From the NCBI GenBank assembly GCA_017619675.1, contig JAFZRX010000001.1:1-64000 (forward strand): a stretch of 64,000 nucleotides of DNA. Direction: 5' to 3'. Below the pieces are notes generated by a model. The model was not told the DNA's origin, did no database searches, and worked only from the letters and a program-made list of their open reading frames with translations. Each line of letters begins with the position of its first letter. The first letter of the stretch is position 1. Origin of the DNA: Bacteroidales bacterium (GTDB lineage Bacteria; Bacteroidota; Bacteroidia; Bacteroidales; UBA932). Of the stretch, positions 15,324-57,272 are shown piece by piece. The translations under genes were made by a program, and so were the position numbers.

Positions 15324-15738
15324 TCTCGCACGGCTTTCCCGCCTCCTGCCATCCCACGAAACCTGTATCAAGGTCTATGACCTTGTAACCATCTTCCGCC
15401 AGTATCCCCGCCGCCGTCTTGCTGCGCCTTCCCGTCCTGCAGTTCACCGCAATTGTCTTGTCCTTTGGCAGCAGCGCCCTTGCCTTCTCTAGGAAGTCAT
15501 CCTTCTGTACATCAATGACTATGGAGCCCGGAATATGTCCTTCCTCCCACTCCTCCTGCGAGCGTACGTCAACCCGTATCACCTCCTTGTCTGAAATGGC
15601 CTTCTCGAACTCATCCACGGAAAGACTGACGAAACCGGCCCCCTGGCCTCCCTTAGCCTTGTACCTTCCCGCACACGCGGCAACCACCAGGGCAGCGCCC
15701 AGCACAATTACCGCAGTCAACAATGCATTCATTCTCAT
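15313..15738 (-). CDS. Rhodanese-domain lipoprotein
   Basis: The protein has 141 residues with a signal and lipobox (VVAAC, Cys22), followed by a single rhodanese domain with IRVDVRSQEEWEEGHIPGSI and the active-site loop C100-RTGRRSKTA. Rhodaneses move sulfane sulfur through the catalytic cysteine; single-domain envelope forms are common, but their substrates are poorly defined. The C-terminus keeps GYKVIDLDTGFVGW. There is no functional context from neighbours: convergent with the unknown lipoprotein, divergent from the XRE gene. Confidence 0.9.
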   Translation of the reverse strand: MRMNALLTAVIVLGAALVVAACAGRYKAKGGQGAGFVSLSVDEFEKAISDKEVIRVDVRSQEEWEEGHIPGSIVIDVQKDDFLEKARALLPKDKTIAVNCRTGRRSKTAAGILAEDGYKVIDLDTGFVGWQEAGKPCEITD

Positions 15739-15835
15739 ATCGCGTCTCTGTTACTATCAGAATAAAACTTCTATCAGTTATATTACTTCTACTACTTGTA
15801 AAGATAGCATATTTCTGAATAATTTCACTAAGATG

Positions 15836-26766: not shown

Positions 26767-27744
26767 CTAGCGGGTGAAAAGGTTGGTCAGGTTAAGGTTA
26801 TATGTGATTCCGCCGCTGAAGAGCGGTCCTTCAATGGTGTCATAGCAGGCCAGGGCGTGGAGCCTGAGGTCCTGGCTGTCCGCCAGGGGATAGTACTGCA
26901 GGGCGCCGCCGATGTAGCCGCGCTCGTAAGGCATGTCAAAATCCGGCAGGCCTCCTGCCTCGCAGCCTCCCTTTACAAGGAAGTCGAAGTGGTCTGAGAT
27001 ATGGAAATCCGCGGTGTACGCGAATGTGTGGCTGCTTGCGCCGTCGTAAAGGGCAAGGATGTAGTCAAGGCCCAGGGTGAGCCAGTCAGTCACGTCCAGC
27101 TGGTTGCCGCTGCCGAACAACTTTATGTTCTCTCCCTTTCCCTTGCCGTATTCCATGAGGTTGACGGACCACAGTGAGCGGTATATGTCAAAGTCTCCGG
27201 TCCACATTGCGGCGTAGGAGAGGAGTTTCTGGTCGAAAGGCTTGTAGTTGAAAGGTGAGGAAGTTGCCTGAAGTGTGAACGCGTTGGACTCGGAGGGGGT
27301 TGCGTATGTGAGTTTGCCGCCCCACTGATATACCTGCGCGTTGTTCCAGAATGAGGAGTTTATCTCCCAGTAACTGTCCCAGTCGTATTGGTCTATTTCA
27401 AATGAACCTATCGCTATGATGTCTTTTCCCACGGTGAATGACCAGTTGCCTAGGTTAAGGCTGACATTGGCCCAGTCACACCAGTTCAGGACGTCTGCGC
27501 GCCATGTGTTCTGGTAAAGTTCAGGGGTTGTAGGTTCATCACTGACCCAGTGATTGCTGATTGAGTAGGAGAAAAGTTCTCCGAGGTCACCCTCTACAAG
27601 AGTGTAGAGATAAGGGATAACAGGGTAGTCGAATCTTGCGATTACAGACACTTGCGGAACATTGCTTTCCGGGTCTGCCTCCTGGGCGAAAACAGGAGTG
27701 CAGCAAATGGCGCATACGGCCAAAAGCGACAAAATTCTCTTCAT
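26767..27744 (-). CDS. Outer-membrane beta-barrel-like protein, first gene of the pot operon
   Basis: The protein has 325 residues with a signal peptide ([18 protein letters not shown]) and repeated amphipathic beta strands with aromatic girdle residues, ending in an aromatic-rich strand ([13 protein letters not shown]). The pattern fits an outer-membrane porin or barrel; the exact family is not recognised. It is separated from potA by only 7 bp and heads the pot operon, so it may supply the outer-membrane path for the polyamine transporter; that link is inference. Confidence 0.75.
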
Positions 27745-27799: not shown

Positions 27800-27830
27800 T
27801 TTGGTATGTAAATAAAAATCTTTAAATTTG
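27800..27830 (+). promoter_or_regulatory. Promoter of the branched-chain amino acid operon
   Basis: TTTG (27800-27803), 19 bp, TAAATTTG (27823-27830) exactly matches the Bacteroidota -33/-7 pattern. The expected transcript starts near 27836, about 15 bases before the leader peptide start codon. Confidence 0.75.
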
Positions 27831-27850
27831 TATCCAGTAGTGATTACCGT

Positions 27851-27916
27851 ATGACAAATATAGTTAGCGCATCCCTTATCCTCATCGTCCTTGTGGTCCT
27901 TCTGGTTCGCCTCTAG
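27851..27916 (+). CDS. Leu/Ile/Val-rich attenuator leader peptide
   Basis: A 21-codon ORF (ATG at 27851, TAG at 27914-27916) in the untranslated leader of the ilv operon. Fourteen of its 21 residues are Leu, Ile or Val, including the run LILIVLVVLLV, exactly the three end products of the operon. Ribosome stalling on these codons would be the sensor of an attenuator, as in ilvB and ilvG leaders of enterobacteria. No start-codon competitor or homologous protein function is likely. Confidence 0.85.
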   Translation: MTNIVSASLILIVLVVLLVRL

Positions 27917-27989
27917 GTCTGGGATGTCGTTATAGATTTTAAAAGTTGAAGCCCATCTCAGACAAGACACTGAGAGAGGCTTTTTTTTT
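27917..27989 (+). promoter_or_regulatory. Attenuator: antiterminator and terminator of the ilv operon
   Basis: Segment 2, GTCTGGGATG (27917-27926), can pair with segment 3, CATCTCAGAC (27954-27963), over 10 bp with one G-U pair. Segment 3 also forms the terminator: AAGCC plus TCTCAG (27949-27961) pairs with CTGAGA plus GGCTT (27970-27982), followed by nine T (27981-27989). Segment 2 can alternatively pair with CATCCC (27870-27875) inside the leader ORF. The arrangement is the classical 1:2, 2:3, 3:4 attenuator, ending 13 bp before ilvD. Confidence 0.82.
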
Positions 27990-28001
27990 AAATACATATT
28001 T

Positions 28002-29843
28002 ATGGGAAAAAAGACTTACAGAAGCGCGCAGACAATTACCGGCCGCAGGATGGCGGGGGCCAGGGCCCTCTGGAAGGCCTGTGGAATGACTTCTTCCCAG
28101 ATGGGAAAGCCGGTCATTGCCATTGCAAATTCGTTCACCCAGTTTGTTCCGGGACACACGCACTTGCATGATGCCGGACAGTTGGTAAAGGAAGAGATTG
28201 AGAAACTGGGCTGCTTTGCCGCCGAGTTCAATACAATAGCCGTTGACGACGGAATTGCAATGGGGCATGACGGAATGCTCTATTCGCTGCCCTCGCGTGA
28301 CCTGATAGCGGACAGCGTAGAATATATGTGTAACGCCCATAAGGCGGACGCGCTGGTTTGCATAAGCAATTGCGACAAGATCACCCCGGGTATGCTCATG
28401 GCCGCTATGAGGCTGAACATTCCGGCGGTTTTCGTTTCAGGAGGGCCAATGGAGGCCGGCGTGGCCGGATCCGCAAAGCTGGACCTCATTGACGCAATGA
28501 TCAAGTCTGCGGATCCTTCCATGAGCGACGCCGACGTGGCCCAGATCGAGGCCGCCGCCTGCCCGGGCTGCGGATGCTGCTCCGGAATGTTTACCGCAAA
28601 TTCCATGAACTGCCTCACCGAGGCCATTGGCATGGCGCTGCCGGGCAACGGCACGGTGCTGGCCACGCACGTGCGCAGGGCGGAACTCTTCCGCGAGGCT
28701 GCGCGCCTGATTGTGAATAATACTTACAAATATTATGACGAAGGCGACGAGAGCGTGCTGCCGCGGAGCATTGCCACGCGCCAGGCGTTCCTGAACGCCA
28801 TGGCGCTGGACATTGCGATGGGTGGCTCCTCCAACACCGTGCTGCACCTGCTTGCAGTGGCGGCGGAGGCCGGCGTGAATTTCACGATGGACGACATTGA
28901 CGCCCTGTCCCGCAAGGTGCCCTGCCTCTGCAAGGTTGCGCCCAATACGGCCAAGTACCACGTCGAGGACGTGGGCCGCGCCGGCGGCATCATGGCACTC
29001 ATGGAGTGCCTGAACGACGCCGGCCTGGTGGACGCCTCCTGCAAAAGGGTGGACGGCCTCACGCTGGCGGACGCCATAGGCAAATACAGCCTGATGGGTG
29101 CCAGCGTTTCGGCCGAGGCCAAGGATATCTACAGCTGCGCCCCGGCCCGCCGCTTCAACATTGTGATGGGCTCGCAGGACACGCGCTTCGCATCCTTCGA
29201 CACTGACCGTGCGGAAGGCTGCATCCGCGACGTGGCGCACGCCTATACAAAGGACGGCGGCCTGGCCGTGCTCAAGGGCAACGTTGCAGCTGACGGCTGC
29301 ATAGTGAAGACAGCCGGCGTGGACGAGTCCATATTCCATTTCAGCGGCCCCGCAAAGGTGTTCGATTCGCAGGAAGAGGCCTGCGATGGCATCCTGGGCG
29401 GAAAGGTTGTGAGCGGAGACGTTGTAGTTATCCGCTATGAGGGCCCCAAGGGTGGCCCCGGAATGCAGGAAATGCTTTATCCTACCTCATATATCAAGTC
29501 AATGCACCTTGGAAAGGAGTGCGCCCTGATTACGGACGGACGCTTCAGCGGAGGTACGTCGGGCCTGAGCATAGGCCACATATCGCCGGAGGCCGCATCG
29601 GGCGGAATCATCGGCCTGGTAGAGGACGGAGACATCATAACAATAGACATTCCTTCAAGGAGCATCTCGCTTGAAGTGGGGGAGAGCGTACTTGAGGAGC
29701 GCCGCGCAAGGCAGTTGGCCCGCGGCAGGAAGGCATATACCCCCGCGACCAGGGACCGCAAGGTATCCAAGTCGCTCAAGGCATATGCCGCGATGGTTAG
29801 TTCGGCAGACAAGGGCGGAATACGCCTGATTGAAGAAGATTGA
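28002..29843 (+). CDS. ilvD: Dihydroxy-acid dehydratase
   Basis: The protein has 613 residues. It dehydrates 2,3-dihydroxy-isovalerate and -methylvalerate to the 2-oxo acids of valine and isoleucine synthesis, using an Fe-S cluster. Cluster cysteines are in [10 protein letters not shown] and [35 protein letters not shown] near the C-terminus is diagnostic. First structural gene of the BCAA operon, 13 bp behind the attenuator T-tract. Its TGA lies 2 bp before the ilvB ATG. Confidence 0.97.
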
Positions 29844-29845
29844 TT

Positions 29846-31573
29846 ATGGCAGAAAACGACAAAATGATCAAGGGTTCGCAAATCCTTATGCGCGCCCTCC
29901 AGGAAGAAGGCGTCAAGGTTATCTGGGGATATCCCGGCGGACAGATTATGCCCGTGTATGACGCTTTGTACGATTATCAGGATGTATTCAGGCACATACT
30001 GGTGCGCCACGAGCAGGGTGCCATCCACGCCGCGCAGGGTTATGCGCGCGTGAGCGGCAAGACCGGCGTGGTGCTGGTGACCTCCGGTCCGGGAGCCACC
30101 AACGTGATGACCGGTATTGCTGACGCAATGATAGATTCCACCCCCGTGGTCGTGATCAGCGGCCAGGTGGGCAACAATATGCTGGGAACAGACGCTTTCC
30201 AGGAGGCGGACGTGATAGGACTTTCAACGCCTGTCACAAAGTGGTGCTACCAGATCCGCCGTCCCCAGGACATAGCCCCAGCCGTGGCAAAGGCGTTCTA
30301 CATCGCCTCCTCAGGCCGTCCGGGTCCTGTGCTCCTGGATATAACCAGGGACGCACAGGTGGGCCTTGCGGAGTATCACTTCGACCTCTGCACCTCCATC
30401 CGCAGTTACCGTCCCAACCCGCCTATGCCGGAGAAGGACGTCAGGACCGCCGCGGAGATGATAGCCCGCGCGGACAGGCCTTTGCTCATTTACGGACAGG
30501 GAATCACCCTTTCCGGAGCGGAGGACGCCCTCAAGGCATTCCTGGACAAGACCGGAATCCCCGCGACTTCAACGCTGCTGGGATTGAGCGCCCTGCCGTC
30601 AGACTACAAGCATTTCATTGGAATGGCCGGAATGCACGGCAACATCGCTCCAAACGTAATGACCCAGAAGTGCGACCTGCTGATAGCAATAGGAATGCGC
30701 TTTGACGACCGCGTGACCTGCAAGATGTCAGAGTACGCAAAGCAGGCGCGCAAGATACACGTAGACATTGACGAGGCGGAAATAGGCAAGAATATCCAGG
30801 TCGACCTGGGCGTCCACGGAGACGCCAAGGCCGTGCTGGAGCGCCTGACTGAACTGGTTCCGTCCTCAGACTATACAGAGTGGGAGAAAGTGGCCGAGAA
30901 CTGCCGCAAGGCGGAGACCGCGGAGGTCATCAATCCTGAGATCCATCCAACCGAAGGCCCCATCACCATGGGCGAGGTTGTCAACACCGTGGCTGACATT
31001 GTGAAGGATTCAGCCATCGTAATAACCGACGTGGGCCAGAACCAGATGCTGGGAGCCCGCTACTCCCGCTTCAACCAGAAGCGCAGCCTGATCACCTCCG
31101 GCGGACTTGGCACAATGGGCTTCGGCCTGCCGGCCGCCATTGGAGCCAAGGTTGCCAGGCCGGACCGCCAGGTCTGCCTGTTCGTTGGCGACGGCGGCCT
31201 CCAGATGACCATCCAGGAACTGGGTACCATCATGCAGGAAGGCATCGGCGTAAAGATAGTAGTGCTCAACAACAACTGGCTGGGCAACGTGCGGCAGTGG
31301 CAGCAACTGTTCTGGAAGTCCCGCTATTCGTTCACAAGGCTGATCAATCCGGATTTCAAGGCCATCACGGAGGCTTACGGAATCAAGTACCTCCGCGTTG
31401 AGGACAGGGACAAACTGGCGGAGACCGTCAAGCAGATGATTGAGGAACCGGGTCCGTGCCTGCTTGAGGCATGCGTGCTGGAAGAGGGAATGGTATTCCC
31501 CATGATAGCCCCGGGAAAGAGTGTAGATGACATTATGGTTACCAAAGATAAATTGTTTGTATATGGAGAATGA
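29846..31573 (+). CDS. ilvB: Acetolactate synthase, large subunit
   Basis: I chose the ATG at 29846 (MAENDKMIKGSQIL) over an in-frame TTG two codons earlier. The 575-residue protein has the three TPP-enzyme domains: PYR with the activating glutamate in HEQGAIHAAQGYARVSG, the central FAD-type domain, and the PP domain with the TPP motif starting GDGG and ending near NNNWLGNVRQW. It condenses two pyruvates, or pyruvate with 2-oxobutyrate. The ilvN start overlaps its 3' end. Confidence 0.96.
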   Translation: MAENDKMIKGSQILMRALQEEGVKVIWGYPGGQIMPVYDALYDYQDVFRHILVRHEQGAIHAAQGYARVSGKTGVVLVTSGPGATNVMTGIADAMIDSTPVVVISGQVGNNMLGTDAFQEADVIGLSTPVTKWCYQIRRPQDIAPAVAKAFYIASSGRPGPVLLDITRDAQVGLAEYHFDLCTSIRSYRPNPPMPEKDVRTAAEMIARADRPLLIYGQGITLSGAEDALKAFLDKTGIPATSTLLGLSALPSDYKHFIGMAGMHGNIAPNVMTQKCDLLIAIGMRFDDRVTCKMSEYAKQARKIHVDIDEAEIGKNIQVDLGVHGDAKAVLERLTELVPSSDYTEWEKVAENCRKAETAEVINPEIHPTEGPITMGEVVNTVADIVKDSAIVITDVGQNQMLGARYSRFNQKRSLITSGGLGTMGFGLPAAIGAKVARPDRQVCLFVGDGGLQMTIQELGTIMQEGIGVKIVVLNNNWLGNVRQWQQLFWKSRYSFTRLINPDFKAITEAYGIKYLRVEDRDKLAETVKQMIEEPGPCLLEACVLEEGMVFPMIAPGKSVDDIMVTKDKLFVYGE

Positions 31574-31889
31574 GAAAATGTATCTGGTGGAGGTTTACAC
31601 TGAGAACCAGGTAGGCCTCCTTGTTACGGTTACGGGAATCTTCAGCAGGCGCAGCCTGAACATTGACCGTCTTGAGACCGCTCCAACCCCCCTGGAGGGC
31701 ATCCACGTGCTTTATATCACAACCGTCACCACGCTTAGCATGATACGCAAGGTGGTGCAGTTCCTGGAGAAGAAAGTGGACGTGGTCAAGGCCTTCTACA
31801 AGGAATATGAAGGCGAACAGCTGCTTACCACGCCTCACTTTGACCAGGTGCAGCTGGCTACGGTAGCCGAATTACTGAATATTGAATAA
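31563..31889 (+). CDS. ilvN: Acetolactate synthase, small (regulatory) subunit
   Basis: I placed the start at 31563 (MENEKMYLVEVYTEN), overlapping the ilvB stop by 11 bp; 31578 is an alternative, giving 103 instead of 108 residues. The ACT domain is clear: VEVYTENQVGLLVTVTGIF, RRSLNIDRLETAPT, and a VVQFLEKKVDVVKAF helix. It is shorter than the ~160-residue IlvH type and so lacks the second domain. It gives valine feedback to IlvB in related enzymes. Confidence 0.92.
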   Translation: MENEKMYLVEVYTENQVGLLVTVTGIFSRRSLNIDRLETAPTPLEGIHVLYITTVTTLSMIRKVVQFLEKKVDVVKAFYKEYEGEQLLTTPHFDQVQLATVAELLNIE

Positions 31890-31908
31890 CAAATTAAATA
31901 AGACATTT

Positions 31909-32955
31909 ATGGCACAGATGAATTTTGGCGGCGTAATGGAGAATGTAGTTACCCGCGGAGAGTTTTCCATGGACAAGGCACACGAGGTGCTTGCAGGAAA
32001 GAAGATTGCAGTTATCGGCTACGGCGTACAGGGCCCCGGCCAGTCACTGAACCTCAAGGACAACGGATTTGACGTAATAATTGGCCAGCGTCAGGGCAAG
32101 ACCTACGAGAAGGCCATCAAGGACGGCTGGGTTCCGGGAGAGACTCTCTTTGGAATCGAGGAGGCCTGCGACAAGGGAGACATCATCATGCTCCTCCTTT
32201 CAGATGCCGCGGTGCTTTCAGTATGGCCCACCATCAAGCCTTACCTCACCAAGGGCAAGACCCTCTACTTCTCACACGGATTCGCTATCACCTGGAACGA
32301 CCGCACCGGCTGCGTTCCTCCTGAGGACGTCGACGTTATCATGGTAGCCCCCAAGGGCTCCGGCGCAACGGTTCGTTCACTGTTCCTCGAGGGCCGCGGA
32401 ATCAACTCTTCCTACGCTATCTATCAGGACTACACAGGAAACGCTTACAATACAACCATCGCTTTGGGAATTGGAATCGGCTCAGGATATCTGTTCGAGA
32501 CCACATTCCAGCGCGAGGCCGTTTCTGACCTCACCGGTGAGAGAGGATCCCTCATGGGAGCAATCCAGGGCCTTCTGAGCGCCCAGTACGAGGTGCTCCG
32601 CGAGAACGGACACTCTCCTTCCGAGGCGTTCAACGAGACCGTAGAGGAGCTCACCCAGTCCCTGATGCCGCTGTTCGCAGCAAAGGGAATGGACTGGATG
32701 TACGCAAACTGCTCCACCACCGCACAGAGGGGCGCCCTTGACTGGATGGGTCCTTTCCACGATGCCATCAAGCCTGTCGTACAGAAACTGTACGCCAGCG
32801 TAAAGAGCGGCAACGAGGCCCAGATCTCAATGGACAGCAACAGCAAGCCTGACTACCGCGAAGGCCTTGAGAAGGAACTGAAGGCCCTCCGCGAGAGCGA
32901 GATGTGGCAGACAGCCGCCACCGTGCGCAAACTCCGTCCCGAGAACAACAAGTAA
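31909..32955 (+). CDS. ilvC: Ketol-acid reductoisomerase
   Basis: Start at ATG 31909 (MAQMNFGGVMENVV); the frame extends upstream only to a weak TTG inside the ilvN end. The 348-residue protein has the NAD(P)H-binding GYGVQGPGQSLNLKDNG motif followed by GQRQGKTYEKA (phosphate-binding loop), then the knotted helical domain with the metal-binding glutamates region (DLTGERGSLMGAIQGLL). It isomerises and reduces acetolactate and acetohydroxybutyrate. Class I KARI length. Confidence 0.96.
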   Translation: MAQMNFGGVMENVVTRGEFSMDKAHEVLAGKKIAVIGYGVQGPGQSLNLKDNGFDVIIGQRQGKTYEKAIKDGWVPGETLFGIEEACDKGDIIMLLLSDAAVLSVWPTIKPYLTKGKTLYFSHGFAITWNDRTGCVPPEDVDVIMVAPKGSGATVRSLFLEGRGINSSYAIYQDYTGNAYNTTIALGIGIGSGYLFETTFQREAVSDLTGERGSLMGAIQGLLSAQYEVLRENGHSPSEAFNETVEELTQSLMPLFAAKGMDWMYANCSTTAQRGALDWMGPFHDAIKPVVQKLYASVKSGNEAQISMDSNSKPDYREGLEKELKALRESEMWQTAATVRKLRPENNK

Positions 32956-32964
32956 TCCACTTTT

Positions 32965-34458
32965 ATGGACGATAAGGTTTACATATTTGACACCACGCTC
33001 CGCGACGGCGAACAGGTGCCCGGATGCCAGCTCAACACCGTTGAGAAGATCCAGGTGGCCAAGGCGCTGGAGGAACTTGGCGTCGATGTGATAGAGGCGG
33101 GATTCCCCATTTCCAGCCCCGGAGATTTCAACTCAGTCATTGAAATCTCCAAGGCTGTGACCTGGCCTACCATCTGCGCCCTGAGCCGCGCCGTCAAGAA
33201 AGACATTGACACCGCGGCGGAGGCGCTGCAGTACGCCAAGCACAAGAGGATCCACACCGGAATAGGCACATCGGACTACCACATCAAGTACAAGTTCGAC
33301 TCCAACCGCGAGGAGATACTCCAGCGCGCGGTCGAGGCCGTCAAGTACGCCAAGAAGTATGTGGAGGACGTGGAGTTCTACGCGGAGGACGCGGGACGCA
33401 CGGACAACGAGTACCTGGCACGCGTGGTTGAGGCCGTCATCAAGGCCGGAGCCACCGTGGTGAACATTCCGGATACTACGGGATATTGCCTGCCGGCGGA
33501 GTACTCGGAGAAGATCAAGTATCTGTTCGAGCACGTGGACGGCATCCAGAACGCCATAATCTCCACCCACTGCCACAACGACCTGGGAATGGCCACGGCC
33601 AACACCATGGCCGGCATCATGGCCGGAGCGCGCCAGGCGGAGGTTACCATAAACGGAATTGGCGAGAGGGCCGGAAACACCTCGCTGGAGGAAGTTGTGA
33701 TGATCCTCAAGTGCCACAAGAACCTTGGGGTGCACACGGACATCAACAACCGCAAGATCTATCCGCTGAGCCGCACCGTGTCAAGCCTGATGAACATGCC
33801 GGTACAGCCCAACAAGGCCATCGTGGGAAAGAACGCTTTTGCGCATTCCTCCGGAATCCACCAGGACGGCGTGCTCAAGAACATGTCCACATACGAGATC
33901 ATGGACCCGCAGGACGTGGGCCTGGATGCCAACAGCATAGTGCTCACCGCCAGGAGCGGACGCGCCGCACTCAAGCACAGGCTTGAGGTGCTGGGCGTCA
34001 AGAAAAGCGGTGAGGACCTGGACAAGATCTACGACGCCTTCCTGCTGCTTGCAGACAAGAAGAAAGAGATCCATGACGACGACCTGCTCCTCCTTGCGGG
34101 CGCGCACGGCCAGGACCACCACATCAAGCTGGAGTACCTTCAGGTAACCAGCGGCATTGGGGTGCGCCAGGTGGCCAGCGTGGGCCTGAACATAGCGGGC
34201 GAGCAGTTCGAGTCCGCTTCCACGGGCAACGGCCCGGTTGACGCGGCCATCAACGCCATCAGGAACATAATCCGCAGGAGCGTTGTCATCAAGGAACTCA
34301 CAATCCAGAACATTGCCGGCGGTTCCGACGATACCTGCAAGGTACATATGCAGGTGGAGAGTGACGGACACATCTATTACGGATTCGGTACCAATACGGA
34401 CATAGTGGCGTCCTCAGTGGAGGCCTATGTGGATTGCCTTAATAAAATCCAGAAGTAA
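32965..34458 (+). CDS. leuA: 2-isopropylmalate synthase
   Basis: The protein has 497 residues. The TIM-barrel catalytic domain starts with [17 protein letters not shown] and has the metal-binding [13 protein letters not shown] motif; the C-terminal ~130 residues are the LeuA leucine-binding regulatory domain. It condenses 2-oxoisovalerate with acetyl-CoA, first step of leucine synthesis. It follows ilvC by 9 bp and overlaps leuC (TAATG). A second family member, 36419-37954, is the citramalate synthase, so the two should not be confused. Confidence 0.94.
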
Positions 34459-35822
34459 TGAATACGCTTTTTGACAAGATTTGGGACTCGCACGTGGTAT
34501 CGCTGATACCGGACGGCCCAACCCAGTTATACATAGACAGGCTTTACTGTCACGAGGTCACCAGCCCGCAGGCGTTCGACGGCCTGCGCGCACGCGGGAT
34601 CAAGTGCTTCCGGCCGGAGAAGATATTCTGCATGCCGGACCACAACACCCCCACGCACGACCAGGACAAGCCAATCGAGGATCCCGTATCCAAGCGCCAG
34701 GTGGACAGCCTGGAGCGCAACGCCAAGGAGTTCGGGCTCAACTACTTTGGGATGATGCATCCAAAGAACGGCATCATCCACGTAGTTGGACCTGAGAGGG
34801 GACTGTCCCTGCCGGGAATGACCATTGTGTGCGGAGACTCGCACACATCCACCCACGGCGCTATGGGTGCCGTTGCCTTTGGCATAGGCACCAGCGAAGT
34901 GGAGATGGTGCTGGCTTCGCAGTGCATCCTTCAGCAGAAGCCTAAGTCGATGCGCATCAACATAGAGGGCAAACTGGGAAAGGGCGTGACCGCCAAGGAC
35001 ATGGCCCTGTACCTGATGATGAAACTCACCACCAGCGGAGCCACCGGATACTTTGTGGAGTACGCCGGAGAGGCCGTGCGCAGCCTTTCAATGGAAGGCC
35101 GCCTTACCCTGAGCAACCTGTCGATAGAGATGGGCGCCAGGGGAGGATTTATCGCTCCTGACGAGGTTACATTCGAGTACCTGAAGGGACGCGAGTATGC
35201 GCCCAAGGGCGAGGAGTGGGACAAGGCCGTGGCATATTGGAGGACGCTCAAGAGCGGAGACGACGCCGTCTTTGACAAGGAACTGTTCTTTGACGCGGCT
35301 GACATCAAGCCCATGATCACCTACGGAACCAATCCGGGAATGGGCATGCCAATAGATGCCAATATTCCTGTTCCGCAGTGCAAAGCCCTTGACTATATGG
35401 GATTTACGAGCGGGCAGAGCCTCCTTGGCCATAAGATAGACTATGTATTCCTGGGTGCGTGCACCAACGGAAGGATAGAGGACTTCAGGGCTTTCGCGTC
35501 CCTTGTCAAGGGATATAAGAAAGCCGAGGGCGTAACCGCCTGGCTGGTCCCCGGATCCTGGATGGTAGACGCCCAGATCAGGGAGGAAGGCCTTGACAAG
35601 GTACTGGAGGAAGCAGGCTTCGAGATCCGTCAGCCGGGCTGCTCCGCCTGCCTTGCAATGAACGACGACAAGATTCCGGCAGGGAAGTATTCTGTTTCTA
35701 CCAGCAACAGGAACTTCGAGGGCCGGCAGGGGCCGGGCTCGCGGACGCTGCTTGCAAGTCCGCTCACCGCTGCCGCTGCCGCCATTACCGGCGTAGTAAC
35801 CGATCCACGTAAATTCTTGTAG
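34458..35822 (+). CDS. leuC: 3-isopropylmalate dehydratase, large subunit
   Basis: The protein has 454 residues, aconitase superfamily. Fe-S cysteines lie in [13 protein letters not shown] and [12 protein letters not shown]; early motifs are [14 protein letters not shown] and [19 protein letters not shown]. With LeuD it isomerises 2- to 3-isopropylmalate and, with citramalate, makes 2-methylmalate (the CimA route). Starts on the last base of the leuA stop (TAATG). Confidence 0.96.
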
Positions 35823-35825
35823 ACC

Positions 35826-36422
35826 ATGAAGCAGAAATTTGACATAATAGAGAGCAGCTGCATTCCTCTTCCTTTGGAGAATGTGGATACGGACCAGATA
35901 ATCCCGGCGCGTTTCCTCAAGGCCGTGACCAGGGACGAGAAGTTCTTTGGCGAGAACCTGTTCCGCGACTGGCGCTACAAGCCGGACGGAAGCCTTAACA
36001 AGGACTTTGTCCTGAACGACCCGCGCTACAGCGGAGAGATACTGGTTGCCGGAAAGAACTTCGGTTCCGGATCAAGCCGCGAGCATGCCGCATGGGCTAT
36101 CGCAGGATACGGCTTCAGGGTTGTGATATCCAGTTATTTCGCTGATATACACCGCAATAACGAACTCAACAACTTTGTCCTTCCGGTGGTTGTAAGCGAG
36201 AAGTTCCTGGCTGAACTGTTCGATTCCATAGCAAAGGATCCTGCTACGCGCGTAAGGGTTGACGTGGGCGCGAAGACCGTCACCAACCTGGCAACCGGCA
36301 GCACGGAGTCCTTCCCTCTGGGAGAGTACAAGCAGTACTGCCTGATGAACGCCCTGGACGACATAGATTATCTGCTTCAGCAGAAATCCAAGATTGAAGA
36401 TTACGAAAAGAAAAGCAAATGA
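35826..36422 (+). CDS. leuD: 3-isopropylmalate dehydratase, small subunit
   Basis: The protein has 198 residues, the swivelling domain partner of LeuC. Diagnostic motifs: ENVDTDQIIPARFLK and [17 protein letters not shown]. Three bases after leuC and overlapping cimA by 4 bp (ATGA). Confidence 0.96.
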   Translation: MKQKFDIIESSCIPLPLENVDTDQIIPARFLKAVTRDEKFFGENLFRDWRYKPDGSLNKDFVLNDPRYSGEILVAGKNFGSGSSREHAAWAIAGYGFRVVISSYFADIHRNNELNNFVLPVVVSEKFLAELFDSIAKDPATRVRVDVGAKTVTNLATGSTESFPLGEYKQYCLMNALDDIDYLLQQKSKIEDYEKKSK

Positions 36423-37954
36423 ATCCCAGGCAGAGAATAGAGGTGATGGACACCACCCTGAGGGACGGTGAGCAGACGGCGGGCGTTTCGTTCAACGCGG
36501 GCGAAAAGCTCACCATAGCCAAGCTGCTCCTGAGGGAACTGAAGGTCAACCGCCTGGAGGTGGCTTCCGCCCGCGTGTCGCTTGGCGAGAAGCAGGCCCT
36601 GACGGAAATATGCAACTGGGCGGCCCAGAAGGGCTTCCTGGACAGCATAGAGGTGCTGGGCCTGGTTGACGGGAACCTTTCCGTGGACTGGATATCGTCT
36701 TGCGGATGCAAGGTGGTGAACATACTTTGCAAAGGATCCCTGAGACACGTGACAAAGCAGTTGCGCAAGTCCCCCCAGCAGCATCTGAACGACATCATCC
36801 AGGTAATTGACTATGCTCACTCAAAGGGTATGGTTGTGAACGTATATCTGGAGGACTGGTCCCACGGCATGATTGACAGCCGGGACTATGTGGCCTTCCT
36901 GGTGAACGGCCTCAAGGAGAGGGACGTGAAACGCTTCATGCTTCCTGACACCCTGGGTATCCTGAATCCAGACCAGACTTACGAGTTCTGCAAATGGATG
37001 GTGGACACCTGGCCGGACCTTCACTTCGACTTCCACGCCCATAACGACTACGACCTGGCCGTGGCCAATACCTACGCCGCCATAAAGGCTGGCTTCCAGG
37101 GTATCCATACCACGGTGAACGGCCTTGGAGAGAGGACCGGAAACGCCCCCGTATCCAGCCTGGTGGCCATAATGAACGACCACCTGCACGTGGAGAACAC
37201 CCTTGAGGAGGGCGCCCTGATGCACGTGTGCCGCTATGTGGAGAGCATATCGGGAATAAGGATCCCTTCCAACAAGCCTTTGATAGGGGAGTCAGTGTTC
37301 ACGCAGAGCAGCGGCGTACACGCGGACGGCGACAACAAGGACCGCCTGTACATGAACGACCTGCTGCCCGAGCGCTTCGGCCGCGTTCGCCGCTATGCCC
37401 TTGGCAAGACCAGCGGCAAGGCCAACATACGCGAGAACCTCAAGGAACTTGGAATCAACCTTACTGAAGACCAGATCAAGGCCGTTACCCAGAGGGTTGT
37501 GGAACTTGGAGACAAGAAGCAGGACGTGAGTCCGGAGGACCTGCCGTTCATAATCGCGGACGTCCTCAAGGGAGGTCACGACCCGGCGGAGGACAAGATC
37601 CACATTGTGAACTACAGCCTCCAGTTGGCCCGTGGAATGCGTCCTGTGGCCGTTGTGAAGATCCAGATCTACGGAACGGAATACGAGGATTCCAGTGCCG
37701 GCGACGGACAGTACGACGCCTTCATGAAGGCCCTGTGGAAGATATACGACAGCCTTGGAAAGCCTCACCCGGTACTTGTTGACTATCAGGTTACCATCCC
37801 TCCGGGAGGACGTACTGACGCCCTTGTTGCGGCTACCATCAGCTGGAACTTCCAGGGCAGCGAGTTCAAGACCAGGGGAATTGATTCCGACCAGACCGAG
37901 GCGGCCATCAAGGCCACTCTCAAAATGCTGAATATAGTAGAGACCAAAATATGA
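36419..37954 (+). CDS. cimA: Citramalate synthase (Leptospira type)
   Basis: The protein has 511 residues, of the LeuA family, starting [17 protein letters not shown]. Three segments match what I know of the Leptospira interrogans citramalate synthase rather than Leu[29 protein letters not shown] and [10 protein letters not shown]; the metal-binding [13 protein letters not shown] motif and a C-terminal regulatory domain follow. It condenses pyruvate and acetyl-CoA to (R)-citramalate, starting a threonine-independent isoleucine route completed by LeuCD and LeuB. Such genes are often labelled 2-isopropylmalate synthase; specificity here is inference from similarity. Overlaps both neighbours by 4 bp. 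Confidence 0.85.
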
Positions 37955-39018
37955 AAATGAAGATTGCGAAACTTCCGGGCGACGGCATCGGACCGGAGGT
38001 TGTTGAGCAGGCCGTCAAGGCCGTGGATGCCATATGTGAGAAATTCGGCCATGAGGTAAGTTATACTTCAGCGCTGGTGGGAGCGTGCGCCATCGAGGCC
38101 ACGGGCTCCGCGTATCCAGACAGCACGCATCAGCTGTGTCTGGATAGCGACGCCGTGCTCTTCGGCGCCGTGGGCGACCCCAAGTACGACAACGACCCCA
38201 CCGCAAAGGTACGTCCGGAGCAGGGCCTCCTTGCAATGCGCAAGAACCTTGGCCTGTACGCCAACCTGAGGCCAGTGGAGACCTTCGACAAACTCGTAGG
38301 CAAGTCTCCTCTGAAAGAGGAACTGGTGAGCGGGGCCGATTTCATGTGCATCCGCGAACTTACAGGAGGAATGTACTTCGGCAAAAAGGGCCGCGAGGAC
38401 AACGGGGACACCGCGTATGACACCAACATATACCATCGTTATGAGGTTGAGCGCATCCTGAAACTTGGCTTCGAGTATGCCATGCGCCGCCGCAAGCACC
38501 TCACAGTGGTTGACAAGGCCAACGTACTGGAGTCTTCCAGGCTCTGGAGGCAGATCGCCCAGGAAATGGCTCCCAAGTATCCTGAAGTCACCACTGACTA
38601 TATGTTCGTGGACAACGCCGCAATGCAGCTGATCCGCCAGCCAAAGTTCTTTGACGTGATGGTTACGGAGAACACCTTCGGAGACATCCTTACTGACGAG
38701 GCCAGTGTCATCACCGGCTCGATGGGACTGCTTGCTTCAGCATCTATCGGCGAGCATACCAGCGTGTTCGAGCCTATCCACGGCTCGTATCCGCAGGCTG
38801 CCGGAAAGAACATTGCCAATCCATTGGCAACCATCCTTTCCGCAGCCATGATGTTCGAGTACGCCTTCGGGCTCATGGAGGAGGGCAAGGCCATACGCAA
38901 GGCCGTAGCCGCCTCAATTGACCAGAACATAGTTACCGAGGACCTTGCCGCGGGCGGAAAGGCCTACAGCACATCCGAGGTTGGAGACTGGGTAGCAGAT
39001 TATATCAGAAAGAATTAA
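37951..39018 (+). CDS. leuB: 3-isopropylmalate dehydrogenase
   Basis: The protein has 355 residues (353 if the ATG at 37957 is used). Family features: [11 protein letters not shown], the substrate arginines around [38 protein letters not shown] and the NAD-binding [18 protein letters not shown]. It oxidises and decarboxylates 3-isopropylmalate to 4-methyl-2-oxopentanoate, and can act on 3-methylmalate in the citramalate route. Its start overlaps the cimA stop (ATGA). Confidence 0.96.
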
Positions 39019-39031
39019 AAACCACATACTT

Positions 39032-40069
39032 ATGCAGAATTTGGACTGGTCCAATCTTTCCTTCAAGTACAGGAAGACTTACGCGATGATAGTAAGCTAT
39101 TACCGCGACGGAGAGTGGAGCGCTCCGGTGGCTACAAAAGACTTCAATTTTGTTTTTAACGCCTATGCGGGCGTGTTCCATTATGCCAACGCCTGCTTCG
39201 AGGGCCTCAAGGCTTTCCGCGGTGCCGATGGCAAGCTCCGCATGTTCCGCCCTGACCAGAACGCCAAGCGTATCCAGGACAGCGGCGGCTACCTTGACAT
39301 GGCCACCCCTTCGGAGGAGATGTTCATCGAGATGTGCGCCATGTGCGTCAAGGAGAACATCGACTATGTGCCGCCTTACGGATATGGCGCGTCGCTCTAT
39401 ATCCGCCCTGTGCTTATCGGCATTAATCCCCAGTTGGGAATTGCATCGTCCAAGGATGTGGTCTTCGCGGTTATGTGCGCCCCGGTTGGAACATACTCCG
39501 GAGCAGCCAGCCTGAGCACCGGAACTGCCGTATTGTCAAGGAATTACGACCGCGCCGCCCCCAATGGAACCGGTCATTTCAAGATTGCGGCCAACTATGC
39601 CACATCCCTGCATCCGTACAACCTTTCCCATAAAATGGGATACAGGGAACTGCTCTATCTTGATCCCGCGCAGAAGAAGTACATAGACGAGTTCGGTTCA
39701 TCCAACTTCCTGGCAATTAAGGGCGACACCTACGTGACTCCGCTTTCGGATTCCGTACTGCCTTCAATTACCAACAAGTCCCTCCAGCAGGCCGCCCTTG
39801 ACCTTGGCTACAAGGTTGAGAAGAGGCGCGTGCCGGTTGAGGAACTTTCCGAGTTCGACGAGGTCAACGCCTGCGGCACCGCCGTCGTGATCACTCCAAT
39901 TGGAAGCATCGACGACAAGCCCGCCCTTGAGAGCGACGTCATCACAAAGACTTATACGTTTGGAGATCCTTCCAAGGTAGGCCCCGTCAGCGAGAAGCTC
40001 TACAACTACCTCCGCGGCATCCAGGACGGCGTCCTCGATGACCCTCACAACTGGTGCTACTTCCTGTAG
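39032..40069 (+). CDS. ilvE: Branched-chain amino acid aminotransferase
   Basis: The protein has 345 residues, fold-type IV PLP enzyme. Motifs: FHYANACFEGLKAFRG, YIRPVLIGINPQLG, GHFKIAANYATSL with the likely PLP lysine, and ACGTAVVITPIGSI. It transfers amino groups from glutamate to the three branched-chain 2-oxo acids and is the last gene of the operon (14 bp after leuB). A long hairpin follows 15 bp downstream. Confidence 0.96.
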   Translation: MQNLDWSNLSFKYRKTYAMIVSYYRDGEWSAPVATKDFNFVFNAYAGVFHYANACFEGLKAFRGADGKLRMFRPDQNAKRIQDSGGYLDMATPSEEMFIEMCAMCVKENIDYVPPYGYGASLYIRPVLIGINPQLGIASSKDVVFAVMCAPVGTYSGAASLSTGTAVLSRNYDRAAPNGTGHFKIAANYATSLHPYNLSHKMGYRELLYLDPAQKKYIDEFGSSNFLAIKGDTYVTPLSDSVLPSITNKSLQQAALDLGYKVEKRRVPVEELSEFDEVNACGTAVVITPIGSIDDKPALESDVITKTYTFGDPSKVGPVSEKLYNYLRGIQDGVLDDPHNWCYFL

Positions 40070-54827: not shown

Positions 54828-57272
54828 ATGAAAGTTCTAAAATTCGGAGGCACGTCGGTAGGTTCCAGCCAAAGCCTCGCAAACGTCAAGAGTATATCGG
54901 AGTCCCAGGAGTCCTCAGTCATCGTTGTCGTGTCCGCACTTTCGGGTGTTACGGACGCCCTTCTGGATGTGAGCAAACTGGCCGAAATGTCCAATCCAGA
55001 CTATCCAGAGCTGTTTGAGAAGATCAAGACCCGCCATTATGACCTGGTGGGCGAACTGTTCCCTGACAAGGAGAAAAGCCAGGCCGTGACAGCCAAGCTG
55101 GATGTCCTTTTCGCCGAGCTTGGAGACCTTCTCAAGGGAATCTCACTTTTGCATATACTTACAAAGCGCACTTCTGACCAGGTGGTAAGTTATGGGGAGA
55201 GACTTTCCTCAATTATTATCTCCGAACTCATTGACGATGCGGAGCTCTACGACGCCCGCGCCCTCATCAAGACCGTTCCCCGCAACCATAAGGATGTGCC
55301 TGATTTCCAGGCAACTGGCAAGCTTCTCAAGGAGGCCTTCAAGAATTTCAGGGGCAAGGGCAAGATAGCCGTCGTACCCGGATTCATATCCACCGATGCG
55401 GCCACCGGAATAGTCACCAACCTGGGAAGGGGCGGATCTGACTACACTGCAAGTATTATCGCTTCCGAACTGGACGCTGACTGCCTTGAAATCTGGACCG
55501 ACGTTGACGGTTTCATGACCGCCGACCCCCGCATCATCAAGACTTCATACGTAATTAACGAACTGAGTTACCAGGAAGCGATGGAACTTTGCAACTTTGG
55601 AGCAAAGGTCATCTATCCTCCAACCTTGTTCCCGGTCCGCGCCAAGAACATCCCCATAAAGGTAAAGAACACCTTCAACCCGGAGGCTCCGGGCACAATA
55701 ATAAAGGAAGTATGCGAACGCCATCAGGACAGGCCCGTAACGGGTATCTCCTCAATCAGTGACACCTGCCTGATCACCCTTTCAGGTAACTCAATGGTAG
55801 GTATCGTTGGCGTTGACGGCCGCATCTTCAGCCGTCTGGCTGCATACAGCATCAGCGTGTTCCTCATCTGCCAGTCATCTTCAGAGACAGGTATCTCCAT
55901 TGGTGTGGGCGCATCAGACGCCCCTCTGGCATGCCGGATCCTCAATGAGGAGTTCGAGCATGAGATTTCCACCGGAGAGATCAACCCTATCTGCGCGGAC
56001 TACGGTCTGGCCACAATAGCAATCGTGGGAGACGGAATGCGCAACAACGCCGGTCTTGCCGGTAAACTGTTCAGCACCCTTGGCCGCAACGGCATCAGCG
56101 TGATCGCCTGCGCGCAGGGCAAGGACGAGACCAACATCTCGTTTGTAGTTGACGGCAAATACCTCCGCAAGTCCATAAACGTAATCCACGATGGATTCTT
56201 CCTTTCTGAATATCAGGAACTTAACCTGTTTATCTGCGGAGTGGGCACAGTGGGAGGAAGACTTATAGACCAGATAGCCTCCCAGCAGCAGAGGCTCAAG
56301 GAAGAGCGCAACCTCAAACTGAATATCGTGGGTATTGCGCGCAGTTCCAAGGCTGTCTTCGACCGCGGCGGCATAGACCTTTCCAATTATAAAGAACTCC
56401 TGGAGAAGGGCATTTCTCTCAGGAGCGTGGAGCACCTCCGCGACGAAGTTATCGCCATGAACATATTCAATTCTGTGTTCGTGGACTGCACCGCCAGCGA
56501 GGACGTGGCTTCCATCTACAAGGATCTGTTCCAGCATGGAGTATCGGTAGTGGCCGCGAACAAGGTGGCCGCATCGTCCGAATATTCCAACTACCGCACC
56601 CTCAAGGACACCGCCCGCAAGAGGGGAGTCAAGTACCTCTTCGAGACCAACGTGGGCGCCGGACTGCCAATCATCAACACCATCAATGACCTGGTGAACA
56701 GCGGCGACAAGATCCTCAAGATAGAGGCAGTGGTCAGTGGAACGCTGAACTTCATATTCAACACCCTTTCAGAGGACGTTCCGTTCAGCCAGACCGTGCG
56801 TATGGCCAAGGAGCAGGGCTTCTCCGAGCCGGATCCGCGCGTGGACCTGTCCGGAAAGGACGTGATCCGCAAGCTGGTTATCCTGGCGCGCGAGGCAGGT
56901 TATGAGGTTAACCAGGAAGATGTGAAGGCAGACCTGTTCATCCCCACGGAGTTCTTCAACTGCAGCCTGGAGGAGTTCTGGCGCAAGCTGCCTTCGCTTG
57001 ACGCGAACTTCGAGGAGCGCCGCAAGCAGCTTGAGGCTGAGAACAAGCACTGGAGGTTCGTTGCCAAGATGGAGAACGGCGAACTGTCAGTGGGACTGGC
57101 ATCGTTCCCGCAGAACCATTCGTTCTACAGGCTGGACGGATCCAACAATATCATACTTCTGACCACCAGGCGTTACAACCAGCATCCAATGCTCATACAG
57201 GGCTACGGTGCGGGCGCAGGCGTTACGGCGGCGGGAGTTTTCGCAGACATTATGAGCATAGCCAACATATAG
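54828..57272 (+). CDS. thrA: Bifunctional aspartate kinase/homoserine dehydrogenase
   Basis: The protein has 814 residues. The aspartate kinase part (1-~300: KFGGTSVGSSQ, GRGGSDYTASII, EIWTDVDGFMTADPR) is followed by ACT domains (~300-450) and homoserine dehydrogenase (~460-814: CGVGTVGGRLIDQIA Rossmann motif, GVSVVAANKVA, GLPIINTINDL). It makes homoserine from aspartate semialdehyde in two separate activities and is the threonine-branch enzyme. First gene of thrA-thrB-thrC-asd, 3 bp before thrB. Confidence 0.96.
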   Translation: MKVLKFGGTSVGSSQSLANVKSISESQESSVIVVVSALSGVTDALLDVSKLAEMSNPDYPELFEKIKTRHYDLVGELFPDKEKSQAVTAKLDVLFAELGDLLKGISLLHILTKRTSDQVVSYGERLSSIIISELIDDAELYDARALIKTVPRNHKDVPDFQATGKLLKEAFKNFRGKGKIAVVPGFISTDAATGIVTNLGRGGSDYTASIIASELDADCLEIWTDVDGFMTADPRIIKTSYVINELSYQEAMELCNFGAKVIYPPTLFPVRAKNIPIKVKNTFNPEAPGTIIKEVCERHQDRPVTGISSISDTCLITLSGNSMVGIVGVDGRIFSRLAAYSISVFLICQSSSETGISIGVGASDAPLACRILNEEFEHEISTGEINPICADYGLATIAIVGDGMRNNAGLAGKLFSTLGRNGISVIACAQGKDETNISFVVDGKYLRKSINVIHDGFFLSEYQELNLFICGVGTVGGRLIDQIASQQQRLKEERNLKLNIVGIARSSKAVFDRGGIDLSNYKELLEKGISLRSVEHLRDEVIAMNIFNSVFVDCTASEDVASIYKDLFQHGVSVVAANKVAASSEYSNYRTLKDTARKRGVKYLFETNVGAGLPIINTINDLVNSGDKILKIEAVVSGTLNFIFNTLSEDVPFSQTVRMAKEQGFSEPDPRVDLSGKDVIRKLVILAREAGYEVNQEDVKADLFIPTEFFNCSLEEFWRKLPSLDANFEERRKQLEAENKHWRFVAKMENGELSVGLASFPQNHSFYRLDGSNNIILLTTRRYNQHPMLIQGYGAGAGVTAAGVFADIMSIANI

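Follow-up and report, generated by a model that had tools for sequence, protein, structure and literature searches.

The window analysed in this study, that is the whole 64,000-nucleotide stretch of a Bacteroidales genome, carries on its plus strand a ten-gene operon for branched-chain amino acid biosynthesis. It begins with ilvD (28002-29843; NF009103), continues with ilvB for the acetolactate synthase large subunit (29840-31573; TIGR00118), an ilvN-like gene for a short small subunit of acetolactate synthase (31527-31889), ilvC (31882-32955; TIGR00465), leuA (32965-34458; TIGR00973), leuC (34458-35822; TIGR00170), leuD (35826-36422; TIGR00171), a cimA-like gene (36419-37954) and leuB (37951-39018; TIGR00169), and ends with ilvE (39032-40069; NF009897 and TIGR01123), with neighbouring reading frames either overlapping or lying at most 13 nt apart. 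The curated NCBIfam cut-off is exceeded by eight of the ten genes with the models given above. The exceptions are the ilvN-like gene, for which PF22629 (ACT_AHAS_ss) scores over its cut-off and the NCBIfam small-subunit models fall below theirs, and the cimA-like gene, whose best match, citramalate synthase NF042433, reaches 625 bits against a curated cut-off of 950. The ilvN-like product has 120 residues at most, with the ACT domain as its sole match, and the citramalate-synthase-like gene amid the leu genes would permit isoleucine synthesis from pyruvate. Elsewhere in the window, an aspartokinase-homoserine dehydrogenase gene of the thrA type occupies 54828-57272, with about 70 nt between it and the opposite-strand reading frame upstream.

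The sequence and the list of open reading frames (ORFs) leave a gap of 257 nt between the minus-strand ORF at 26767-27744 and the start of ilvD at 28002. On the plus strand of this gap, TTTG at 27800-27803 is followed after a spacer of 19 nt by TAAATTTG at 27823-27830, a combination which we take to match the Bacteroides-type -33/-7 promoter pair on the motif definition. An earlier note, made from the sequence alone, had claimed a promoter at 27800-27830, and the Bacteroides-type sequence found there bears this out; the sigma-70 scan lists no site in that interval. Among related loci, TAnnTTTG is present 45-190 nt 5' of the leader stop codon in 80 of 93, against 8.7 expected from base shuffles. 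For the folding model, the transcription start was assumed to lie near 27837.

Downstream of the promoter, a short plus-strand ORF (27851-27916, stop codon 27914-27916) encodes MTNIVSASLILIVLVVLLVRL, and 14 of its 21 codons specify isoleucine, leucine or valine (I/L/V). These form a dense run at codons 9-19, the densest stretch of 12 residues holding 11 of them. Strand 2 (GTCTGGGATG, 27917-27926) adjoins the stop codon without a gap and forms with strand 3 (CATCTCAGAC, 27954-27963) an antiterminator helix of ten pairs, one of them G-U. Strand 3 serves at the same time as the 5' arm of an intrinsic terminator (27950-27989), in which its partner is strand 4, and the two structures are mutually exclusive. 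The terminator hairpin, composed of 27951-27953 paired with 27978-27980 and 27956-27961 paired with 27970-27975 (27950 with 27981 is also possible), folds at -13.9 kcal/mol within 27951-27983 and is followed by nine T at 27981-27989, ending 12 nt 5' of the ilvD ATG at 28002. The leucine-, isoleucine- and valine-rich ORF, the ten-pair antiterminator and the exclusive terminator with its T-run had all been read off by the earlier note and were recovered at these same positions. A further plus-strand segment, strand 1 (CATCCC, 27870-27875), forms six perfect pairs with 27921-27926 as a possible protector or pause hairpin. The 12 nt between the T-run and ilvD offer too little room for another promoter and, since the terminator stands between the upstream promoter and ilvD, a transcript from that promoter must pass it to enter ilvD. 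A window-wide scan for rich leaders also returned an I/L/V-rich ORF followed by a T-run at 15723-15818; no hairpin precedes that T-run and the candidate was judged to be a chance occurrence.

Taken on its sequence features, the element is very probably a ribosome-mediated transcription attenuator of the ten-gene ilv-leu operon. RNA polymerase would start near 27837 and a ribosome would begin the 21-codon leader. With leucyl-, isoleucyl- and valyl-tRNA plentiful, the ribosome would reach the stop codon at 27914-27916 and cover strand 2, upon which the 3:4 hairpin would form and transcription would end at the T-run before ilvD. Shortage of any one of the three amino acids would stall the ribosome in the run at codons 9-19 and leave strand 2 free; it would pair with strand 3 ahead of the synthesis of strand 4, letting polymerase run on through all ten genes. 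What we infer from this arrangement is that the leader is translated, that ribosomes stall on it, that ribosome and polymerase are coupled and that the switch operates in living cells.

Systematic comparison of ilvD upstream regions was done on four sets. The set near the source comprised 61 genomes, 26 of them with an ilvD match; the order-level set comprised 295 genomes drawn evenly, 135 with a match; a third set comprised 80 named loci; and a fourth comprised 20 regions from elsewhere in the class, which carry an ilvD of a distant type. Three loci whose ilvD match started after residue 20 were dropped (137 to 134), as was one region shorter than 150 nt (L069), giving a final set of 233 regions, which seems to include one species under two identifiers (for example, L016 and L047 share one leader). 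The order sample consists of 120 of the 132 places with a near-type ilvD. The detector called a leader with at least 8 I/L/V in 12 residues and a stop codon within 260 nt of ilvD, followed by a hairpin of -6 kcal/mol or better, cut-offs which miss weaker or more distant cases such as the rich leaders of L045, L063 and L152, lying 282-288 nt off, and the leaders of L117 and L200 with only 7 of 12.

At least 8 I/L/V per 12 residues were found in 141/233 real regions, compared with 15/233 reverse complements and 62/1165 shuffles, while at least 11 were found in 27 real regions (the window included), 0/233 reverse complements and 0/1165 shuffles. A leader lies within 260 nt of ilvD in 137/233 regions, and a terminator follows in 131 of these 137, again including the window. 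The full set of leader, hairpin (-11 kcal/mol or better) and 2:3 duplex (-10 or better) was present in 125/233 real regions, or 125/210 when other phyla are left aside, as against 0/233 reverse complements and 1/699 shuffles. The leader architecture seen in the window is confirmed to lie far above chance.

The distribution of the element was then read from the same loci, whose sets share species and whose split by phylum was made from record titles. Leader and terminator occur together at 90 of the 120 order-sample loci (window included), the other 30 lacking them by the detector, so that the conserved short ORF which the earlier note had suggested looking for is found in the relatives. Within the genus, 11 of 14 loci (window included) have the pair and 3 are without it. 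Among named Bacteroidota loci the figures are 27/56 with and 29/56 without, the former including Bacteroides graminisolvens, Phocaeicola faecalis, Alistipes and Labilibaculum; records titled Prevotella or Prevotellaceae show it in 1 case out of 10. A 'Prevotella-like' subset had been chosen after the element-lacking loci were known and was excluded from the evidence. Elsewhere in the class, where ilvD is of the distant type, 17 of 20 loci are without the element and three (L219, L226 and L229) have an I/L/V-rich leader and a terminator. None of 23 loci from other phyla with the same ilvD type has leader and terminator, and the element is therefore not a trait of any ilvD upstream region. These counts suggest an element of long standing in the order that has been lost or has weakened in certain lineages.

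Compensatory change was assessed in alignment A1, which has 50 rows from 90 loci. In the terminator helix, 87.7% of cells pair and 77 show changes on both sides; for the antiterminator the figures are 79.4% and 44, the alignment favouring the 2:3 count because its loci had been pre-filtered on 2:3 energy. For both helices, 0/500 shuffles reached either measure, and every slid register was lower on cells paired, on two-sided cells and on covariation score. Counting the antiterminator pairs that show any two-sided change gives 8, which does not stand out, being reached by 112/500 shuffles and surpassed by one slid register with 9. Unconstrained RNAalifold settled on the terminator helix, every one of whose ten pairs carries two-sided changes. 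The compensatory changes that the earlier note had proposed as a check are thus present in both stems across the 50 chosen loci.

Exchange of strands between loci gives a corresponding result, in that stem sequences differ from locus to locus and yet stay paired. The native 2:3 duplex is stronger than that with the median foreign strand 3 in 126/131 loci, the native 3:4 better than the cross-locus median in 131/131, and the native 1:2 better than its cross-locus median in 85/94. On the stricter comparison, a native 2:3 above 95% of sampled foreign partners, 54/131 pass, a figure held down because the stems share a consensus. The position of strand 2 is likewise kept: its first base falls between -9 and +6 nt of the stop codon's end in 94/131 loci, against 34% of shuffled controls, and some of the 37/131 outside this interval fall there because the chosen frame overruns a likely stop.

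The same geometry can be read from the leader codons of 94 loci. I/L/V make up 61-98% of codons 5-14 before the stop and 12-18% of the last two, with fractions of 0.86, 0.98, 0.86 and 0.84 at codons -5 to -8 and of 0.45, 0.18 and 0.12 at codons -3 to -1, a profile whose height is inflated because the loci were chosen for I/L/V richness. A stall at codon -5 or at any codon 5' of it would leave strand 2 clear, and a ribosome nearer to the stop would cover it. The sharp edge of the I/L/V run is what a ribosome footprint would be expected to imprint, and the control codons appear to sit where stalling would require them. Codon choice is also skewed, the leucine codon CTA amounting to 19% of leader leucine codons in the 94 loci against 3% in 47 ilvD genes, with ATT and GTC raised as well. 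CTA may possibly act as a sensitiser, and the pairing demands of strand 1 may contribute to its frequency.

Molecular folding of the window's leader with a ribosome placed at successive codons was used to model the switch. With the ribosome's 3' edge set 12 nt past the A-site, the probability of the 2:3 pairing is at least 0.98 for stalls at codons 2-20 and 0.00 with the ribosome at codon 21 or the stop; a 15-nt edge moves the switch point to between codons 19 and 20. Within the model, a ribosome at the stop would mask strand 2 and one stalled at the control codons would leave it free. When the full leader is folded to equilibrium, the probability of 3:4 is 0.96-1.00 at nearly every ribosome position, the exceptions being two or three positions among codons 13-16 with 0.39-0.55. 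Since the terminator prevails here with the ribosome almost anywhere, equilibrium folding was rejected as an account of the switch, which must instead be decided by the sequence in which the strands fold, in the interval when strand 3 has emerged and strand 4 has not. For a transcript ending before strand 4 with no ribosome, 2:3 reaches 0.97 against 0.02 for 1:2, and with strand 4 present 1:2 (0.99) and 3:4 (1.00) prevail. The possible protector pairing of the earlier note stands, as six perfect pairs in the window and as a pairing kept across loci, but in the window 2:3 outcompetes it as long as strand 4 has yet to be made. Without translation, default termination need not follow, and the role of 1:2 in the window appears uncertain from the folding model.

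The equilibrium result lends some weight to a different explanation, in which the terminator is real and independent of leader translation, either as a fixed partial terminator or under the control of a protein: at equilibrium it dominates almost whatever the ribosome does. A fixed terminator, however, needs neither a strand 2, nor Leu/Ile/Val codons, nor a set distance from the stop codon, and all of these recur among the relatives with different sequences. We consider this explanation improbable. Attenuation by a translating ribosome is supported by the anatomy, the conservation and the compensatory changes together, in line with the classical attenuator that the earlier note had claimed.

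Leaders of other amino acid operons were sought in ten hand-picked genomes. A leader with a histidine run precedes hisG in nine of the ten, the source genome included, where it (contig C7, locus L242) encodes MTNNSIITLHHHHHRI and is followed by a terminator upstream of hisG, with a 2:3 energy of -14.2. A terminator hairpin follows all nine hisG leaders, and on a raw count seven of them, all but L238 and L246, have 2:3 pairings at least as strong as -11 kcal/mol. None of the His-run hisG leaders matches an Rfam family at gathering score; three tRNA matches returned by the Rfam search of the his and trp loci are unrelated to the leaders. The trpE gene was found in eight of the ten genomes, and in two of them (L264 and L268) a Trp-rich short ORF (WW and WWW occur in these ORFs) and a strong terminator stand before it, the 2:3 pairing being weaker at -7.5 and -9.5. 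No convincing leader was seen at the other six trpE loci. With histidine before hisG and I/L/V before ilvD, the leader codons track the pathway.

These observations, along with residue composition, bear on the idea that the short ORF is a gene in its own right, with its own terminator, for a functional hydrophobic membrane peptide, and that it stands before ilvD incidentally. A run of I/L/V does also resemble a membrane helix, and an ordinary terminator follows the ORF. In 95 leader windows, however, the residues other than I/L/V are 71% S/N/T/H/D/Q and 20% F/A/M/W/C/G/Y, against 28% and 53% for the same classes in a set of 78 12-mers rich in I/L/V, taken from long six-frame ORFs irrespective of whether these are genes and with redundant loci included. 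Ser, Asn, His and Thr are the commonest such residues in the leaders, and Gly, Ala and Phe in the six-frame 12-mers. Leader and terminator moreover precede ilvD in 131/233 regions, strand 2 sits at the stop in 94 of those 131, and a His-run peptide occupies the equivalent position upstream of hisG. A membrane peptide is accordingly very improbable here. A chance assembly of pairings and rich ORF in an AT-rich leader is scarcely credible, for although a simple terminator scan alone is unremarkable and no better than shuffles (1 site against 2.5 expected), the combined criteria separate 125 of 233 real regions from 0/233 reverse complements and 1/699 shuffles, and the element is found in relatives with compensatory changes.

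Two leaders in series, each with its terminator, stand before ilvD at six loci: L025, L100 (Labilibaculum sp. K2S), L202, L203, L213 and L217. The 2:3 energy of the first unit ranges from -10.6 to -19.1 across the six, and the two leaders of L202 are nearly identical, so a recent duplication is likely there. L106 may be a seventh tandem locus; it was read by eye, no clear T-run follows its second hairpin, and it failed the detector. Four further loci listed as multiple (L113, L054, L164 and L168) were judged from position and sequence not to be tandem leaders. Tandem leaders may behave as an AND gate, and these natural versions allow one attenuator and two to be compared on the same operon.

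In enterobacteria, the attenuators of ilvGMEDA (ilvL) and ilvBN (ivbL) are of the textbook kind. The window resembles them in having a leader rich in branched-chain codons and mutually exclusive antiterminator and terminator ahead of branched-chain biosynthesis genes. It differs in phylum, in an RNA that is unrelated, in its Bacteroides-type promoter, in having one compact leader before one operon that joins ilv and leu genes, and in a strand 2 that abuts the stop codon. The survey of attenuation in bacteria by Lopatovskaya et al. 2010 may cover Bacteroidota, and an earlier prediction of the element may be contained in it.

Closer to the window, in the same phylum, a passage on Flavobacterium psychrophilum reports strong clues for leader-peptide attenuation 5' of amino acid operons (PMC9723704); unlike the present description, that passage names no operon, structure or spread. 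A map of Bacteroides thetaiotaomicron records long 5' UTRs whose short ORFs resemble leader peptides (PMC7366714). Outside Proteobacteria, work on Corynebacterium ilvB leaders presents attenuation of a branched-chain operon, there in Actinobacteria and before another operon, ilvBNC (PMC10272879, PMC11857589). None of the literature matches listed describes this ilvD leader in Bacteroidales, as far as title or abstract start tells in a search whose coverage leaves out most subscription journals, and no description of branched-chain amino acid sensing in Bacteroidales is found among the matches listed. The Bacteroid-trp motif sits before trp genes and holds Trp codons. It is recorded as RF01692, a predicted cis-regulatory RNA in Bacteroidetes (PMC2864571). 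At gathering score RF01692 is absent from the window, from the ilvD loci of ten relatives and from the two loci with Trp-rich leaders. Rfam 15 as a whole, its leader families, T-box and riboswitches included, gives no match at gathering score in the window or in the ten relatives' ilvD loci, and a permissive threshold brought four matches far below gathering scores, none of them relevant. In Salmonella, the tandem attenuators of mgtCBR sense ATP and proline. These attenuators (PMC3641672) place two short ORFs in one leader, as the six tandem relatives do, the window itself having a single leader.

Overall, the findings lean towards a standing, order-wide use of leader-peptide attenuation to govern amino acid synthesis in Bacteroidales, a reading we hold to be somewhat more probable than its opposite: leaders matched to their pathway (Leu/Ile/Val, His and in some cases Trp), an RNA that drifts in sequence within a fixed geometry, and lineages in which the element was doubled into tandem units acting as AND gates. 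Bacteroidota are said to make little use of Shine-Dalgarno sequences, and Bacteroidales account for a large share of the gut flora of mammals. A conserved attenuator with no match in Rfam 15 would be a candidate for an RNA family, and it would offer a ready sensor for engineered gut strains. It would also allow a direct test of transcription-translation coupling in Bacteroidota; if the order-wide reading is true, ribosome and polymerase in this phylum would be coupled closely enough for attenuation.
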